Source: Fodinibius saliphilus
GTDB lineage: Bacteria > Bacteroidota > Rhodothermia > Balneolales > Balneolaceae
Reading direction: 5' to 3'
Assembly: GCF_005869845.1 (NCBI RefSeq)
Contig: NZ_VAWF01000003.1
Span: 124,001 to 188,000 of the forward strand
DNA: 64,000 nt
The notes beneath the pieces are model-generated. The model worked only from the letters and a program-made list of their open reading frames with translations. It was not told the origin of the DNA and searched no databases. A program made the translations under genes and the position numbers. Positions 47,719-57,487 of this stretch are shown here, one piece after another (within the stretch, counting starts at the first letter, position 1; each line of letters opens with the position of its first letter).

Positions 47719-49089
47719 TTAGCCCTTTTTATTATGATCTCTTAAGAATGAGGATACCTTTTCTGCGGTTTCCATTCCTGATGATATACAATCGGGTACT
47801 GATACCCCATTGCGAAAGTTCCCATCGAGGAAGAGCCCCGGTTGTTGCTGCTCTATTTTTTGCATCTGGGAAATGAAGTGATCATAGCCAACCTCGTATT
47901 GGGGAATAGCGTTATTCCAAAATTTATGATGGCAAAACACGGGGTCTCCTGCTACTCCCAGTAGTTCACTCAGTTCGTTTGTTACTATTGAACGTAATTT
48001 TTGTTCAGGTTTTGAGGCCAAATCTGGGTTTCGAGCTCCTCCAATAAAACAGGTGATAAGATGATGCCCTTCAGGAGCACGCCCTTTAAAAAGGGTGGAA
48101 GAGAATAAACATCCCAGCAGTTTGTACTTTTCTTTTTCGGGGATGAGCATGCCGAATCCATCTAATGGATGACTAACCTGCTCTTTTTTATAACCCAAGG
48201 CTAATACGCTAAGAGGGGCATAGGGGAGGTCTGCCAGTTCATCAAAAAGGGGATTGTTAAAAATGTTGGATGCGGTATAGACAGGCACGGTGGATACTAA
48301 ACAATGGTGCCGATTCCTGATCGTATCTCCTTCTACTTTTGCTTCAATTGTCCATCCGTTGTTATTATTTGTTGCCGAGGTGATGGTGGCTGAAGTATTA
48401 ACCCCTTCGGGAAGAGTATTCGCCAGCGCTTGGGGGAGTACCTGGTTCCCCTCATCAAAAGAAAGCAGCGCTTTTCGCGGAGTATTATTGGAGCGTCCTT
48501 TTTTAAACAAGCCCTTAAGCAGACTTCCATGTTCTTGTTCCATCGCCCAGAGTTTCGAGAAGGTATGTTTAATAGAAAGCTGTTTGGGATCGCCGGCAAA
48601 GATACCCGAAACAAAAGGATTCACCCCATAATCAAGGGGTTGTTTTCCGAGGCGACGCTCAATAAAGTTAGCAATACTTTCATCCTGTTTTTGAGAAGCG
48701 CCAACAAAGGGCTCTTTCAGTAATCGCAGTTTTGCGCCTGTAGAAAATAGCGGCGTAGATAGAAAGCTCCCCAGCGAATGGGGCAGAGCCACGGGTTTTT
48801 TTTCTTTGACAATAAAACGTTTTTTTGCTGCGGTATTTGCTTCCCGAATATTGTCATTTAAATCTAACTTCTCCAACAGATCCCACAGTTCTTGTGAGCG
48901 TACCATTAAAGTATTTGGACCTTCCTCAATGAGCCAGCCGTTACGACGGTTCGATTGAATCGCACCGCCTACTTCGTCACGTTTATCATAAACCGTGACC
49001 GATACATTTTGTTGGGCGAGGGCATGGGCAATGGTCAACCCTGAAATACCTGCTCCTAGTATGCCAACTGATGATTTTTTATTAGTCAT
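47719..49089 (-). CDS. hemG: Protoporphyrinogen oxidase (HemY-type, FAD)
   Basis: 456 aa FAD flavoprotein that oxidises protoporphyrinogen IX to protoporphyrin IX, feeding ferrochelatase. The dinucleotide-binding motif VGILGAGISGLTIAHALA opens the protein. The diagnostic EEGPNTLMV (about 55), VNPFVSGIFAGDPKQLS and C-terminal GLFLDGNFRNGVSVPDCISSG (FAD-binding) follow. Length fits the oxygen-dependent HemY/PPOX group. It lies 5.3 kb from the heme run, on the opposite strand, and shares a 138-bp intergenic region and palindrome with the iron-binding protein cluster. Confidence 0.93.
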   Translation of the reverse strand: MTNKKSSVGILGAGISGLTIAHALAQQNVSVTVYDKRDEVGGAIQSNRRNGWLIEEGPNTLMVRSQELWDLLEKLDLNDNIREANTAAKKRFIVKEKKPVALPHSLGSFLSTPLFSTGAKLRLLKEPFVGASQKQDESIANFIERRLGKQPLDYGVNPFVSGIFAGDPKQLSIKHTFSKLWAMEQEHGSLLKGLFKKGRSNNTPRKALLSFDEGNQVLPQALANTLPEGVNTSATITSATNNNNGWTIEAKVEGDTIRNRHHCLVSTVPVYTASNIFNNPLFDELADLPYAPLSVLALGYKKEQVSHPLDGFGMLIPEKEKYKLLGCLFSSTLFKGRAPEGHHLITCFIGGARNPDLASKPEQKLRSIVTNELSELLGVAGDPVFCHHKFWNNAIPQYEVGYDHFISQMQKIEQQQPGLFLDGNFRNGVSVPDCISSGMETAEKVSSFLRDHNKKG

Positions 49090-49117: not shown

Positions 49118-49142
49118 CTTAATTAGAATTGATCTAATTAAG
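49118..49142. promoter_or_regulatory. 25-bp palindromic operator candidate between hemG and the iron/flavin cluster
   Basis: CTTAATTAGA-ATTGA-TCTAATTAAG is a perfect 10-bp inverted repeat with a 5-bp spacer. It lies 28 bp before the hemG start codon on one side and 85 bp before the iron-binding lipoprotein gene on the other. TTAG/CTAA half-sites recall DtxR/IdeR-type iron boxes, but the match is general and the regulator is not known. Lack of a T-run argues against a terminator. Confidence 0.5.
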
Positions 49143-49227: not shown

Positions 49228-50283
49228 ATGAAGTATCTACTAAAAGTATTTGTTGCGGTACTGACGTTTTTTTTAATCAGCTCTTGTAGTCAATCATCTT
49301 CTGATCAGCTGGTAGTCTACTCCGGACGGAGTCAGGCACTAGTGAAGAAACTGGTTTCTGACTTTAAAGAACAGACCGGTATCGATATCCAGGTGAGGTA
49401 TGGTAATGATGCTGAGCTGTTGGCTGTTTTGAATGAGGAGGGCGAACAGAGTCCTGCTGATGTATATTGGGCAAATACGACCGGAGCCCTTGCACAGGCA
49501 AACGAACAGGGGATGTTAACAACACTGCCTGATTCGTTAACCAAAAAGCCGGATGCGTATCAATCTGCCAGCGGGAAATGGGTGCCGGTAACGGCTCGAT
49601 TTCGAGTCTTGGCATACAATCCTGAAACCATAAATCCCGAAGATCTGCCAAGTTCAGTTCTTGATTTGCCGAAAATGGATAAGTTTGAGGGTCGTATTGG
49701 ATGGACCCCCACTTATTCCAGTTTCTACGATTTTATTACTGCGCTTCGATTAACGGAAGATAACGAAACGGCCAAAAAATGGCTTCTCAATATGCAGCTA
49801 CTTGACCCCAAAGCTTATAGCTCTAACACCCCGATGGTGCAGGCTATTATGGCTGGTGAGATCGACCTTGGGCTTACCAATCACTATTACGTGATCCAGA
49901 CAAAGCATGGTGGTAAAGAAGGATATTTTGAGGACCATGAGCATTATGGGGAAAAAGGACCTAATCCTGATGCGAATATTGAAACCTATCATTTTGATAA
50001 TGGTGATATTGGAAACCTGGCATTGGTAACAGGAGTGTCACAGCTAAAAACTGCTGATAATCCAGAGTTAGCTCAAAAGTTTATGAGCTTCCTGTTGTCA
50101 AAGAAGGCTCAGGAATATGCAGCACAATCGGTGAATGAATACCCGGTAACAGAAAAAGCGAAACTTCCTGACTATATGCTGGAGTCAAAAGAGGCTTTGA
50201 AATTGAGCCCTAATTACGATTATGAGCAGCTAAAACAATTGGAAGGTACGCTTAACCTACTTAGAGAAGCAGGAATTATTTAA
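49228..50283 (+). CDS. Fe(3+)-binding periplasmic lipoprotein (FbpA/AfuA-like)
   Basis: 351 aa. The lipobox ends ISSC (C20), so it is membrane-anchored in the periplasm. VVYSGRSQALVKKLVSDFKEQTGI is the classic start of the ferric-binding FbpA fold, followed by DVYWANTTGAL, ARFRVLAYNPETI, GWTPTYSSFYDFITALR and GEIDLGLTNHYYV (the YY pair, near residue 218, is the iron-coordinating tyrosine site). It should bind ferric iron. FbpA proteins normally sit with permease (FbpB) and ATPase (FbpC) genes; neither follows here. Instead a porin and a flavin module follow. Confidence 0.9.
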   Translation: MKYLLKVFVAVLTFFLISSCSQSSSDQLVVYSGRSQALVKKLVSDFKEQTGIDIQVRYGNDAELLAVLNEEGEQSPADVYWANTTGALAQANEQGMLTTLPDSLTKKPDAYQSASGKWVPVTARFRVLAYNPETINPEDLPSSVLDLPKMDKFEGRIGWTPTYSSFYDFITALRLTEDNETAKKWLLNMQLLDPKAYSSNTPMVQAIMAGEIDLGLTNHYYVIQTKHGGKEGYFEDHEHYGEKGPNPDANIETYHFDNGDIGNLALVTGVSQLKTADNPELAQKFMSFLLSKKAQEYAAQSVNEYPVTEKAKLPDYMLESKEALKLSPNYDYEQLKQLEGTLNLLREAGII

Positions 50284-50343
50284 AAGTTTATTCTATAGAT
50301 CAGCCAACAATAACCCTTAATTAAGAACACAAAGAATAGAAAT

Positions 50344-51462
50344 ATGCGCTTTTTTAAAAAAATTAGTTTATCTATTGCTCTTATAGTGGCGTTTTCTGCG
50401 GCAGCATCTGCCCAACAGGGAGCTACTATTGGAGGGTATGGAGAACTCCATTATAACGATGTAACTTATAAAGCAAACGGTGATCAAGGGCCGGGTGAAT
50501 TCGATTTTCATCGTTTTATCTTGTACGCAGGATACGATTTTAATGATTGGATTAAATTCCGTTCAGAGTTAGAAATAGAACATACCTATGTAAAAGATGG
50601 TCAGGGCGAAGTTGCTCTTGAGCAAGCTTATATCGATTTGGCTTTTAAAAAGAGTTTTGGTGCCCGGGGTGGTATTATGCTTGTTCCTATGGGGATTGTA
50701 AATCCTGTTCATGAACCCCCAACATTTAATGGTGTTGAACGTCCTAATGTAGAGAAGTATATCATTCCATCTACATGGAGAGAAGCAGGTGCAGGAGTTT
50801 ACGGTAAAACCGAATCTGGATTGAGTTATAAGCTTTATCTGATGGCTGGTTTGAAAACGGAAGGGATTACGGGAAGCAGTGGTATCCGTGATGCTCGCCA
50901 AAAGGCTTTTGAATCTTCTACTGATAACTGGGCTGTAACGGGGCGTTTAGACTATCGTCCGAATTTAAACCTTACTTTTGGTGCTTCTTATTTCTTCTCC
51001 CATTTATCCTCAAACTATAAGTATGGTTCAGCTATGGAAGGCGCTGCAATTCATATGATTGATGGTCATGCAATTTACAATAACGGGGGTTTTGAAGCCC
51101 GTGGTTTGTTTGTATACAGTTCTACTTCTAATGCTGAAGATATCAATAACACCTTAGGGAATAATATAGGTGATTCTCAGTATGGAGGATACCTTGAGCT
51201 TTCTTATGATCTTTTGCGTCTAAGAGATGAAGTTACAGACCAGCAGTTGAACCTTTTCAGCCGTGCTGAAGTATATGATACTCAGGCATCAACGGTTAAC
51301 GTTTTTGATAATCCTGAAAACGAACGATACGAATATACTTTTGGCTTGACCTATAAGCCGGTATCTCAAGTTGCTGTTAAAGCTGATTATCAACTGTTAA
51401 CCACACAAGGTGGTTTCAATGATAAGCACCAATTAAATATTGGTATAGGATATAACTTCTAA
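50344..51462 (+). CDS. Outer-membrane beta-barrel porin
   Basis: 372 aa. A signal peptide with cleavage near ASA-QQ (about residues 22-24), then IGGYGELHYNDVTY, FHRFILYAGYDFNDWIKFRSELEIEH and repeated alternating strands (about 14-16), ending in an aromatic residue (YNF), as barrels do. It resembles carbohydrate- or phosphate-porin-like proteins of Bacteroidota (opening GGYGELHYN). It lies 60 bp after the iron-binding lipoprotein gene and is followed by a terminator-like hairpin, so its expression can exceed that of the downstream genes. Substrate unknown; iron or a chelate is plausible from context. Confidence 0.85.
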   Translation: MRFFKKISLSIALIVAFSAAASAQQGATIGGYGELHYNDVTYKANGDQGPGEFDFHRFILYAGYDFNDWIKFRSELEIEHTYVKDGQGEVALEQAYIDLAFKKSFGARGGIMLVPMGIVNPVHEPPTFNGVERPNVEKYIIPSTWREAGAGVYGKTESGLSYKLYLMAGLKTEGITGSSGIRDARQKAFESSTDNWAVTGRLDYRPNLNLTFGASYFFSHLSSNYKYGSAMEGAAIHMIDGHAIYNNGGFEARGLFVYSSTSNAEDINNTLGNNIGDSQYGGYLELSYDLLRLRDEVTDQQLNLFSRAEVYDTQASTVNVFDNPENERYEYTFGLTYKPVSQVAVKADYQLLTTQGGFNDKHQLNIGIGYNF

Positions 51463-51480
51463 GCAGTTATTACCATTTTC

Positions 51481-51512
51481 AAGGGAGAAGTCTACGGATT
51501 TCTCCCTTTTTA
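51481..51512 (+). terminator. Intercistronic terminator/attenuator after the porin gene
   Basis: AAGGGAGAA (51481-51489) pairs with TTCTCCCTT (51500-51508) around a 10-nt loop, followed by a short T-run. It lies 14 bp before the ATG of the FMN-binding gene, so it would make the downstream three genes less expressed than the porin, rather than separating operons fully. Confidence 0.65.
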
Positions 51513-51525
51513 TATTTCTGATGAT

Positions 51526-52092
51526 ATGAACAAAACAGTTATTTCGACATTTATTGCGTCTATTGCCTTGTTAGTTTTGGCTAATAACGTCATGGGGCAG
51601 GTGCATCCTGATGAACTAAATGAAACACTTATTTCAAATTCGGTAAACGAAGTTTGGGGAGTGAAAGAAAAAACTCAGTGGGCAAAAATTGAAGTTTCCG
51701 ATAGTACGGCTCAACTAATTGAAGGTAAGTTGCGTGCAAAATCGGAAGTTCCGGATACAGTATATATAGGTACGATTAGTACAGGCAAAGGTATACAATA
51801 TGTTTTGCCGGATATTGCTCCAAGCCGTTCAGAAGAGTTTACTTACCTTCTATATTTTGATGCTTCAAAAAAGATCACCGGTATTGATGTATTGGATTAC
51901 CGGGAAAATTATGGATATGAAATTGATTACTCTTATTTTCGGAACCAGTTTAAAGGAAAGTCGAAAGCTAAGCAGGTGAGGTTTAGGAGAGGTATACAGA
52001 ATATAAGTGGTGCTACGATATCAGTTCGTTCTATAACCAACTCTGTTCATGATCTCTTATTAATTATTAACCAGATATCATTACCCGAATGA
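51526..52092 (+). CDS. Exported FMN-binding domain protein
   Basis: 188 aa. An N-terminal signal/anchor (about 6-24, FIASIALLVLANNVMGQ) sends it to the periplasm. The C-terminal FMN_bind region carries SGATISV, the [S/T]GA[S/T] flavinylation motif, at S161-T164, so FMN is expected to be attached covalently to T164 by ApbE, whose gene follows two genes later. VYIGTISTGKGIQYVLPDIAPSR and ITGIDVLDYRENYGYEI precede the motif. Its stop overlaps the next start by 4 bp (ATGA). It should be a one-electron/two-electron carrier outside the cytosol. Confidence 0.85.
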   Translation: MNKTVISTFIASIALLVLANNVMGQVHPDELNETLISNSVNEVWGVKEKTQWAKIEVSDSTAQLIEGKLRAKSEVPDTVYIGTISTGKGIQYVLPDIAPSRSEEFTYLLYFDASKKITGIDVLDYRENYGYEIDYSYFRNQFKGKSKAKQVRFRRGIQNISGATISVRSITNSVHDLLLIINQISLPE

Positions 52093-52592
52093 AATCATTA
52101 CCAGCACTGAGAACATGGCCAAAATCATTTAAAAAACTGGTTTTTACCTTTGTGTTGATCTCATTTATTGGGGTGGTCGTGGGCGGTATTATGATTGAAG
52201 TTACCACGCACTTAACTCCTCAGGGAGTAGTAGAGCAGTATAAAGGAATTAGTAAAAGTAAAATTGAGGCTTCTCAGGAATTGAAATTTCCCAAGCCCGT
52301 GAAAGAGATGCTCATAACAACACATAATCATATTTTGGGGTTGTCTTCTCTATTTTTTATTACTGGATTTTTGTATTTAGCCACGGGTAAAGATTCTTGG
52401 CTACAGCTTTCTATTGCGGTGGAACCCCTTATTTCACTCTTTGTAACTTTTGGTGGATTGTGGGTGATGCGATACCTGTGGTCACCGTTTGTTTATGTAG
52501 TAATAATTAGCGGGGCTTTGATGGTGGGCACCTACGCTTGGATGAGTTTTATCGTTATGAAAGAATCATTATCAAAACAAAATAAGGGTTAA
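52089..52592 (+). CDS. Four-helix membrane protein of the flavin/iron cluster
   Basis: 167 aa. Four hydrophobic helices: about 17-37, 80-99, 105-127 and 134-157. A periplasmic-side loop of about 40 residues between TM1 and TM2 holds KISKSKIEASQELKFPKP, and TTHNH (H79 and H81) sits at the TM2 edge. The gene overlaps the FMN-binding gene by 4 bp and ends 1 bp before apbE, so all three are strongly coupled. I infer that it passes electrons from the quinone pool or a cytosolic donor to the flavoprotein. It has no recognised heme-ligand pair across helices, and I do not recognise the family. Confidence 0.7.
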   Translation: MKSLPALRTWPKSFKKLVFTFVLISFIGVVVGGIMIEVTTHLTPQGVVEQYKGISKSKIEASQELKFPKPVKEMLITTHNHILGLSSLFFITGFLYLATGKDSWLQLSIAVEPLISLFVTFGGLWVMRYLWSPFVYVVIISGALMVGTYAWMSFIVMKESLSKQNKG

Positions 52593-52593
52593 T

Positions 52594-53568
52594 ATGAGTG
52601 TTGACCGTAAACAGTTCTTGCAGTTAGCTATTACCGGTGGGTTCGGGACTCTTTTGGGTGGTTCAGTCATTCCAAAGAGATGGAGGGAGGGTGGTATCTC
52701 GCTGACTCCTGTGAGCCGACAAAGCGTTGTGATGGGATCGTTAATATCATTTCAGGTAGTAGCAGAAACCAAGAAGGCGGGCTTCAAGGCTATTCGACGG
52801 GCTGAGAAGATATTTCGTGATCTTGAAAAAACGTTCTCAATGTATGATGAGAAAAGTGAGATGGCAATGCTTGCTCGCAAAGCCGGAACAAAACCGGTGC
52901 CCGTTTCTAATGAGTCGATAGAACTTTTGCGTTTTGCTAAAGCGGTTTACCAACAGGGTGCTAATTATTTTGACGTTACCGTTGAGCCTGCAATGAAGCG
53001 TTGGGGATTTCGCGATAATCCCGGGAGAATTATTTCTCAACCCACAGATAAAGAATTAAGAACCCTCGAACGTATTATAGGGTCAGATAAGATTATCATT
53101 GAGAATGATAACATATTGCTTGCCGAGCAGGGTATGGCTATCGATACCGGAGGTATTGCCGGAGGGTATGCCCTTGACAAAGCGATCTCTGCAATGAAGG
53201 AATGCGATATTTCTGCTGCCTTTATTAATTTCAGTGGAGATATTCATTGCTTTGGCAAACCTATGAAGGGCCAAAAATGGCCGGTCTATCTCGTAGATCC
53301 CCAAACACAACAACCGCTGGCAGAGCCGGTGGAACTTTCTAATGAAGCATTAAGCACCAGTGGAGCTTATCAAAAACGTCGCCATGATGGAAATGAACAT
53401 TCGTGGGGACACCTGTTATTTCCTACACAGGCAAAACCCGTAGAACCGGTGGGATCAGTTACGGCCATTCACTCTTCGGCTATGCATGCGGATGCGTGGT
53501 CAACGGCAGCGTATGTTGGTGCTGAACCTCCTTCTGAAGTTCGCACTTTAGTATTGGATGGAAGTTAA
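52594..53568 (+). CDS. apbE: FAD:protein FMN transferase (ApbE)
   Basis: 324 aa. It attaches FMN from FAD to a Ser/Thr of a periplasmic FMN_bind domain. An N-terminal signal-like stretch (RKQFLQLAITGGFGTLLGG) is followed by VVMGSLISFQV, FSMYDEKSEM, FDVTVEPAMKRWGF, the FAD-binding GMAIDTGGIAGGYALDKA (about 178-195), INFSGDIHCFG, and NEALSTSGAYQKR. Near the end HADAWSTAAYVGA has the Mg-binding Asp and Thr. It ends a few residues after that segment, shorter than many ApbE proteins. Next to its probable substrate gene, this identifies a flavinylation module. Confidence 0.93.
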   Translation: MSVDRKQFLQLAITGGFGTLLGGSVIPKRWREGGISLTPVSRQSVVMGSLISFQVVAETKKAGFKAIRRAEKIFRDLEKTFSMYDEKSEMAMLARKAGTKPVPVSNESIELLRFAKAVYQQGANYFDVTVEPAMKRWGFRDNPGRIISQPTDKELRTLERIIGSDKIIIENDNILLAEQGMAIDTGGIAGGYALDKAISAMKECDISAAFINFSGDIHCFGKPMKGQKWPVYLVDPQTQQPLAEPVELSNEALSTSGAYQKRRHDGNEHSWGHLLFPTQAKPVEPVGSVTAIHSSAMHADAWSTAAYVGAEPPSEVRTLVLDGS

Positions 53569-55567: not shown

Positions 55568-56710
55568 GTGAAACAACGTCTTATACTTACCATTGTTTTA
55601 ATTAATCTTTTCTGTGGTTCTGCCAGTGCCCAACTATTGGGAGGGGGGGTAGGGGCAGACTCCATATCCACGGCATTGGTCCCGGCTTTTGGGTACAGTT
55701 CTAATGAAGGATTTGTTGGGGGGGCAATATTTAATCGATATAACTACAAAGGGGGAATTGCTCCTTTTAAAAACTATCTGAAATCATCTGCGATAGTTTC
55801 AACTAAGGGTTTTGTAGAAGCGGAGATGAAATACGAACAGAACCGGAGTTTTAATCGTGATATCCGTACCTCTGTAGAAGGCTATTTCTATCGCTATACA
55901 ACAGATCTCTTTTTTGGTGTAGGAAATAATACCACTTTTTCAGAAAGCCAATGGAATAATAATTATTACTTTTTTCGTTCAATAAGTTTTGGCGCACAAT
56001 ATAAATTGCGGAAGCCCCTTTTCCGTGATAGGCATAGTCAGTTTGATCTGCAGGGTGGGCTAAGTACCCAATATTATATCCCTTATGAAAGGCAGCAGCA
56101 GTCGTCTTTTTTCCAGTTAAGCCCCAATGGACAGGAAGGAGGATGGATTAACAATTTGAATGCGGGGTTTGTCTGGGAGAACAGAGATAGTGAGTTTGAT
56201 CCAACCAAAGGAAATAGAGCAGAGTTGGAAGTTCGTTTTGCCCCCAATTTGATCAGTAAATATGCATTCACAACCGTTCGATTAGAACTTCGGCAATATT
56301 TCCAGCTTTTTAATTGGATAACGTTTGCAAATAAATTAGAAGCACGTCATGCAGCAGGTGATACTCCCTTTTGGGAACTTTCGACCCTTGGGGATGCCTA
56401 CACTCTTCGGGGCTATCCTTTGAACAGGTTTAAAGGCAATAGCTCGATAGCTTACACACTTGAACTCAGAACTTGGCTTTTCGAATTTCCAGAGCTGTAT
56501 AACCTGAAGTTCGGGGGGCAGTTGTTTACAGATACTGGTCGGGTTTTTACCACTCCGGATGATGTAAAGGACCTGTTTCGTGGTTATAAACAAACAATTG
56601 GTTTTGGGGGAGCGATGTCTATTTTTACTCCCGACTTTATTCTACGAGGAGATGTCGGTTTTTCCGAAGATGTGACGCGTATTTATGTTGGCGTAGGATA
56701 CCTTTTTTAG
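55568..56710 (+). CDS. Omp85 (BamA/TamA)-type outer-membrane barrel protein without POTRA domains
   Basis: 380 aa from GTG at 55568. A signal peptide (about 1-22, ending ASA-Q) is followed almost at once by barrel strands. YTLRGYPLNRFKG (about 285-297) is the conserved RGY motif of the Omp85 L6 loop, and the protein ends YVGVGYLF with a C-terminal Phe. BamA-like proteins have several N-terminal POTRA domains; there is no room for them here. Such POTRA-less members are common in Bacteroidota and may act as small transport or lipid channels. Confidence 0.88.
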   Translation: MKQRLILTIVLINLFCGSASAQLLGGGVGADSISTALVPAFGYSSNEGFVGGAIFNRYNYKGGIAPFKNYLKSSAIVSTKGFVEAEMKYEQNRSFNRDIRTSVEGYFYRYTTDLFFGVGNNTTFSESQWNNNYYFFRSISFGAQYKLRKPLFRDRHSQFDLQGGLSTQYYIPYERQQQSSFFQLSPNGQEGGWINNLNAGFVWENRDSEFDPTKGNRAELEVRFAPNLISKYAFTTVRLELRQYFQLFNWITFANKLEARHAAGDTPFWELSTLGDAYTLRGYPLNRFKGNSSIAYTLELRTWLFEFPELYNLKFGGQLFTDTGRVFTTPDDVKDLFRGYKQTIGFGGAMSIFTPDFILRGDVGFSEDVTRIYVGVGYLF

Positions 56711-56740
56711 AATTACTAACTAGAAATTTATTTAGCCATT

Positions 56741-57487
56741 ATGAGTCGTTCAGTATTATTAACTGCAGCCAAAGAAGATACCGAAACTTTTCAGTCTGAA
56801 CTGAGAGATGAAACCGTTTCAGTTTTGCATTATCCCCTGGAGCGTTATGAGCTGGTAGAAGATGATCAGGATGTGCGTGATACGTTCAAGCTTTTAGATG
56901 AGTTTGAGAATATTGTGCACGGTAGTAAACGTAACGCCATGTTTTTTGTGGAAGCCGTTGAGAAGTATGATAAAATGGATGCGGTACGCAACCAGTTGAA
57001 TTTGGCATTAAATCAGCACACGGCTGACTATTTGGAAGAAGCAGGTATACCGGCGGTGCATCCCCATTCTGATGGCAAGGCGATAGACTTGCTGGAGTTT
57101 ATGCTGCGTATTAAGCATATTGGTAGTACGCTATATCCATGCGGAGATAAAACCTCGGAAAGTATGCCTGGGCTTTTAAGGGAGTTAGATGTGCCCGTCG
57201 AGGAATTGGTTCTCTTTACCCTGGAAGGCCCTGAAGAGTTAAAATTACAGGAGTACCGCAAAGATATTGCTGCCCATGATCCTGCATTTATTATTTTCCA
57301 TTCACGTCGATCGGTAAATCGATTGCTGGCGGCATTCCCTAACCTAAATTATAGCGAAGCCCACATTACTACGGGAGATCAAGCGGTTACCGAGAAGTTG
57401 GAAGGGGAGGGTATTGAGGTAGATAGCCAGGCCGAAGGAAGTTGGAGTTCTATTCGTAAAATAATTAAGGAAGAGCTGGAAGGGTGA
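56741..57487 (+). CDS. Uroporphyrinogen-III synthase-like protein (second HemD-like copy)
   Basis: 248 aa. The fold pattern matches HemD: an N-terminal half, then LYPCGDKTSESMPGLLREL (about 130-148, the phosphate/ring-binding loop region), VEELVLFTLEGPEEL, AFIIFHSRRSVNRLLAAFP and ITTGDQAVTEKLEGEGIEV. It lacks close similarity in the read to the hemD at 36720 and is not in the heme run. It could be a paralog with a changed role, for example in siroheme or other tetrapyrrole metabolism. The position, directly after the Omp85 gene (30 bp), does not clarify the function. Confidence 0.72.
   Translation: MSRSVLLTAAKEDTETFQSELRDETVSVLHYPLERYELVEDDQDVRDTFKLLDEFENIVHGSKRNAMFFVEAVEKYDKMDAVRNQLNLALNQHTADYLEEAGIPAVHPHSDGKAIDLLEFMLRIKHIGSTLYPCGDKTSESMPGLLRELDVPVEELVLFTLEGPEELKLQEYRKDIAAHDPAFIIFHSRRSVNRLLAAFPNLNYSEAHITTGDQAVTEKLEGEGIEVDSQAEGSWSSIRKIIKEELEG

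Follow-up and report, generated by a model that had tools for sequence, protein, structure and literature searches.

A gene of a split ferric importer operon beside a putative Fur-controlled flavin redox module in Fodinibius saliphilus

The window analysed here, a 64,000-nucleotide stretch of the Fodinibius saliphilus genome (genus placed as Fodinibius, Balneolota), carries a block of five forward-strand genes encoding a ferric-binding lipoprotein (FbpA), an outer-membrane porin, a flavin mononucleotide (FMN)-binding-type protein (FMN_bind), a four-helix inner-membrane protein without a family name (4TM) and ApbE, an FAD:protein FMN transferase. The reading that we favour, and regard as fairly probable, is that two things are joined here at one Fur-type site, the fbpA gene of a split FbpABC importer and an envelope redox module which is found across the Bacteroidota and is mostly preceded there by a predicted Fur box. 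The porin, FMN_bind, 4TM and ApbE would most likely form an envelope redox module that acts in iron acquisition under iron starvation and probably reduces ferric chelates admitted by the porin. This proposal is built from sequence, that is from the gene content, the conserved core, the box, the split FbpABC genes and the flavin motif.

The FbpABC importer genes

The fbpA gene (49228..50283, forward strand) encodes a lipoprotein of the SBP_bac_8 family whose closest PDB relative is the Thermus FbpA (3wae/4elo, E~4e-91 by phmmer); the ligand-type tyrosines align, with TPTYSS and NHYY conserved (Tyr163, Tyr220 and Tyr221), and the gene is single copy in the genome. An earlier sequence-only reading of this DNA, whose coordinates and strands for the five open reading frames proved correct, had called FbpA an orphan, and there is indeed no permease or ATPase near fbpA in the window. 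That reading had itself named an fbpBC pair elsewhere as a reason to give the idea up, and a search for ATP-binding cassette (ABC) permeases found one such pair, a 549-amino-acid FbpB with FbpC directly after it (G000:C3:22044-24739, or L018:6045-8740, G000 being the host genome), about 150 kb upstream of fbpA on the same contig and with no binding protein alongside. Both have 9j4r, an “Iron ABC transporter”, as their best PDB match (chains A and B, E=5e-139 and 4e-96), far ahead of others, and the two-domain fused permease and the ATPase of such an importer are both present in the genome. The ABC system of locus L019 was rejected as the partner of FbpA, as it has its own binding protein beside its permeases and is not of the FbpB type.

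Full-length relatives of FbpA, FbpB and FbpC, with the tyrosines kept, are thus shared with the known importers, and the difference lies in gene arrangement. FbpA relatives were found in 47 of the 59 relatives searched and FbpB relatives likewise in 47/59; fbpA and fbpB are unlinked in 12/12 genomes of the genus and in the relative G021, with fbpA beside hemG in Fodinibius, whereas fbpA-fbpB-fbpC are contiguous in the loci inspected from the order's other families (L096-L100), where FeoB precedes them in L097 and, by sequence, in L099. Adjacency of fbpA to fbpBC is typical of FbpABC but is not essential for its function. The plain reading is that fbpA encodes the predicted binding lipoprotein of a normal FbpABC ferric importer whose operon has been split in this lineage, which corrects the reading of the window from an orphan FbpA to a split but complete FbpABC. 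The translated matches to FbpB at G008:C11:46277-47908 and G021:C1:331372-332949 each contain one internal TGA.

The porin, FMN_bind, 4TM and ApbE genes

Behind fbpA lie the genes for the porin (50344..51462; OMP_b-brl/BBP2, with family members also matching Porin_O_P), FMN_bind (51526..52092; PF04205, E=7e-10), 4TM (52089..52592) and ApbE (52594..53568; PF02424, E=2e-55), all on the forward strand; FMN_bind and 4TM overlap by 4 bp, and 1 bp separates 4TM from ApbE. The genome has a single gene for FMN_bind and a single one for ApbE, and so ApbE very probably serves this FMN_bind. The latter carries the acceptor motif S161-G-A-T164, and G162-A163-T164 and S166 are invariant, so that the pair combines an ApbE domain with an FMN_bind domain bearing the [S/T]GA[S/T] acceptor of flavinylation systems, and FMN is predicted to be attached at T164 (codon 52015-52017). 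FMN_bind domain and covalent-FMN threonine motif are shared with RnfG/NqrC (the profile matches RnfG, 9eri_G, at E=1.6e-11), but Rnf or Nqr subunits do not lie beside the module, and the genome has this one FMN_bind gene.

The 4TM protein matched nothing in Pfam or NCBIfam; no credible Pfam match was seen among 31 members (NapH, MsrQ, PepSY, DsbD, NqrB/RnfD and DUF4405 were all unmatched at E<=0.01), a result which leaves room for remote fold similarity to known partners, and profile searches of the PDB gave no credible match for 4TM and nothing useful for the porin. Its invariant residues are G53, H79, H81, F89 and P113, giving the motif H79-x-H81. It represents an unannotated membrane protein family and a candidate new electron-transfer partner.

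The association of 4TM with FMN_bind is conserved far beyond the genus, which the sequence-only reading had made a test of its idea. Scanning contigs with patterns from a close 4TM alignment found two Fodinibius loci only, the patterns being too specific, and a profile search was used instead, which matched 38 of the 395 genomes in a sample of the phylum (about 10%). Leaving aside the genus and G021, we fetched and annotated 34 loci from 9 families. FMN_bind lies beside 4TM in 34/34 of these distant loci, always with 4TM following it; a porin ortholog precedes FMN_bind in 31/34 and ApbE is present in 12/34, and no further gene family is shared by more than three families. Neither FbpA nor FbpB occurs in any of them (0/34), and FbpA thus drops out as a member of the conserved system that had been suggested. 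A tblastn search of plasmids with 4TM gave no match. Fur and FeoB genes lie upstream of the module in L152 and a Fur gene in L175, while in L165 DUF6607 stands where the porin would be, and HmuY and a TonB receptor lie on the other side of the gap.

Several of these loci show arrangements of their own. At L165:7374-13789 a ferritin-like open reading frame (assigned by eye), 4TM, FMN_bind and DUF6607 are followed by HmuY and the TonB receptor across one box, and this is possibly a heme or iron locus in which DUF6607 replaces the porin; no literature on DUF6607 was found. Secreted MsrB-like open reading frames lie 3-4 genes upstream of 4TM in L148, L149, L150 and L155, all of one family (by eye, with no profile). 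L171-L174 have the order ApbE-porin-FMN_bind-4TM, then a copper chaperone gene of the PCuAC type (identified by Pfam in L171) and an ABC system of the phosphate type. In L176 (5839-9746) and L177 a divergent 4TM (H-F-H) occurs together with FMN_bind, a barrel of another kind and heme-type proteins; a Fur box is missing there, and these loci perhaps represent a different, respiratory use of the 4TM–FMN_bind pair.

Within Fodinibius and its relatives the module occupies a variable stretch between fbpA and a GDSL gene. The porin–FMN_bind–4TM–ApbE set fills this slot in five genomes (G000, G007, G001, G010 and G021), whereas G004, whose FbpA is 91% identical, is without the module. Other occupants are a TonB receptor alone (G003), a TonB receptor with a PepSY_TM protein (G008) and, in G002, DUF4856–imelysin–HTTM–TonB receptor (Pfam was run on G002, and five more genomes were judged by look and gene order). 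A cassette of TonB receptor, HTTM/VKGC-like protein, imelysin and DUF4856 was also seen at L084:8417-14645 and in its equivalents L083 and L087-L090, with boxes before DUF4856 in several; no literature joining imelysin with DUF4856 or HTTM was found. A terminator-like hairpin (AAGGGAGAA...TTCTCCCTT, 51481..51508, forward strand, with T-rich DNA after it) lies between the porin and FMN_bind genes in the window; the hairpin scan was by itself not above shuffled expectation, and a similar hairpin is found at the same place before FMN_bind in all five carriers.

The Fur-type box

Between fbpA and the divergent hemG (47719..49089, reverse strand; protoporphyrinogen oxidase, TIGR00562, 330.8 bits against a cut-off of 97.85) lies a predicted Fur box, the palindrome CTTAATTAGA-ATTGA-TCTAATTAAG (49118..49142, 19-bp core 49121-49139), which in this exact form is the sole copy in the host genome. 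The sequence-only reading had noted neither this palindrome nor the hairpin behind the porin gene. The adjacency of hemG and fbpA is kept in all 13 loci of the genus and G021, and the form CTTAATTAGA-N5-TCTAATTAAG is present in 13/13 of the hemG-fbpA gaps, the copy in G006 being imperfect and both arms having changed together in G021 and G011. The link to heme that the sequence-only reading drew from hemG holds only as far as this shared intergenic DNA with the same box. A wider form, ATTTAGA-N5-TCTAAAT, also precedes fbpB, both in relatives and in this genome (here 28 nt before the conserved part of FbpB), as well as two TonB receptors of the genome and the cassettes of the slot after fbpA.

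The box is of the same type as the Fur box of another member of the Bacteroidota, Riemerella anatipestifer, ATTTAGAATTATTCTAAAT, where purified Fur binds promoters carrying ATTTAGAATTATTCTAAAT in an electrophoretic mobility shift assay (PMC5609570), and the box before the porin in G021 is identical to it. The pattern was derived from the Fodinibius fbpA, fbpB and receptor loci and was then tested on the 34 distant loci, none of which had been used to derive it. In 28/34 of these the module's first gene has a box no more than 200 bp upstream of it; counted by family, as the locus counts include related loci, the figure is 6/9. There were 38 boxes in 7.9 kb of upstream DNA compared to 4 in 519 kb elsewhere (one of the 4 precedes the Fur–FeoB operon of L152), a reversed-half-site control gave 0 upstream, and dinucleotide shuffles of the upstream DNA gave a mean of 0.23 loci with a box and a maximum of 2. 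A published Fur box upstream, the mark of a Bacteroidota Fur regulon, is therefore found both for fbpA (13/13) and for the module in most distant loci, and the box is predicted to bind Fur in Fodinibius. When up to 3 mismatches were allowed, a genome-wide scan hardly exceeded its control (9 matches compared to 7); a tighter pattern gave 10 compared to 3, some of the matches lying in coding DNA.

The claim that the module is an extracytosolic redox system which works with flavin and is linked to iron is supported by this distribution of the box and by iron-gene neighbours in several lineages. Earlier ties of flavinylated proteins to iron assimilation came from co-location with ferrous transporters and PepSY/MsrQ reductases; with a predicted Fur site in most occurrences of the module, the iron link becomes directly testable in any culturable carrier.

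Proposed mechanism and rival explanations

On iron starvation Fur would leave the box, and the porin would admit small ferric chelates to the periplasm. ApbE would place FMN on T164 of FMN_bind, 4TM would supply this flavin with electrons from the membrane (from a bound cofactor or quinol), and the flavin would reduce the chelated Fe(III) and so release the iron; both the route of the electrons via 4TM and the role of ferric iron as acceptor are putative. Uptake in Fodinibius could then be of Fe(III) via FbpA/FbpBC or of Fe(II) via an Nramp-type transporter. FeoB (PF07664) was not found in the host genome nor in 10 of the 11 other genomes of the genus, a negative that depends on a single short profile (54 positions) and an assembly that is 98.7% complete; G008 and G021 do have it. 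That Fe(II) is normally handed over to a ferrous transporter, as the sequence-only reading supposed, is not supported by this pattern, but Nramp-family genes are present in the genome, so that an Fe(II) route is possible, and FbpABC or Nramp is the most likely destination of the iron.

The module resembles known systems in part. Flavinylation-associated gene clusters for assimilatory iron reductases include PepSY-, MsrQ- and DsbD-like types and P19/FTR1 (Meheust et al. 2021, PMC8238504). ApbE, FMN_bind with its SGAT motif and the iron link are common to those clusters and to the module, but 4TM lies outside the listed classes and DUF4405 by Pfam, and the module includes a porin and has a Fur box seen phylum-wide. 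With the Fur-regulated HiuABC and FoxB cassettes, whose ferri-siderophore reductases FoxB and HiuB belong among the PepSY_TM proteins, it shares Fur-regulated outer-membrane entry and an inner-membrane reductase (PMC13001220), and a TonB-receptor and PepSY cassette fills its slot in G008, but it uses a porin rather than a TonB receptor and covalent flavin rather than a heme PepSY protein. The hfp heme locus of Flavobacterium psychrophilum lies in a 19-kb iron-responsive region with predicted transmembrane electron-transfer proteins (PMC9331221), which are possible counterparts of the module. No description of the porin–FMN_bind–4TM unit was found in the literature searched, which did not cover the supplementary tables of PMC8238504 and PMC9331221. 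We tentatively suggest, as something that may well prove wrong, that 4TM represents a previously unseen type of membrane electron-transfer partner for a covalent-flavin protein, with the invariant H-x-H on one helix, and that with the porin it serves Fur-controlled, TonB-independent reduction of ferric chelates in Bacteroidota, Balneolota and relatives.

Several observations weigh against ferric reduction by a Fur-controlled module. A Fur box is a sign of iron control and not of the reaction carried out; three of the nine families (4 loci) have no box before the first gene, and most neighbours in the distant loci are not iron genes. In four of the five carriers among the genus and G021 the porin gene lacks its own box, and there the module would depend on transcription from the fbpA promoter; the conserved hairpin ahead of FMN_bind may reduce the expression of that gene or divide the unit in two. 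The AlphaFold model of 4TM is poor (predicted local distance difference test score, pLDDT, of 51 with three sequences as input), and the invariant histidines H79 and H81 are on one helix, whereas known membrane cytochromes have bis-His ligation across helices.

As the strongest alternative, the module could be an iron-sparing electron carrier that is likewise controlled by Fur. On iron starvation Fur would turn on an iron-free flavin chain replacing envelope heme or Fe-S carriers, and the acceptor would not be iron. The Fur box fits this equally well, Meheust et al. note that flavinylated carriers may be favoured where iron is poor (PMC8238504), and predicted periplasmic MsrB genes (assigned by eye) neighbour the module in four loci, all from a single family; but the dedicated, strongly conserved porin suggests an external substrate, and the FeoB, HmuY/TonB-receptor and FbpA neighbours, together with the swap with a PepSY/TonB cassette, suggest acquisition, and we consider this explanation unlikely. 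That the module has some other periplasmic redox job and merely happened to insert after fbpA would fit its differing position among lineages and its mostly unrelated neighbours, but the Fur box travels with it in 28/34 loci and the slot after fbpA otherwise holds iron-type cassettes, which makes chance juxtaposition highly improbable. The scheme of the sequence-only reading, in which the flavin protein receives Fe(III) from an orphan FbpA and a separate ferrous transporter takes the Fe(II), draws on the adjacency of fbpA and the module in four genomes of the genus and G021, with short fbpA-porin gaps in four. With fbpBC in the genome, a box before both fbpA and fbpB, a close relative (G004) without the module, no FbpA at any distant locus and FeoB not found in the genome, it is very improbable indeed, and ferric-chelate reduction beside a split FbpABC is the reading that we retain.

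Further downstream in the window (55568-57487) are an outer-membrane assembly-type barrel and a HemD-like open reading frame, assigned by eye from sequence.

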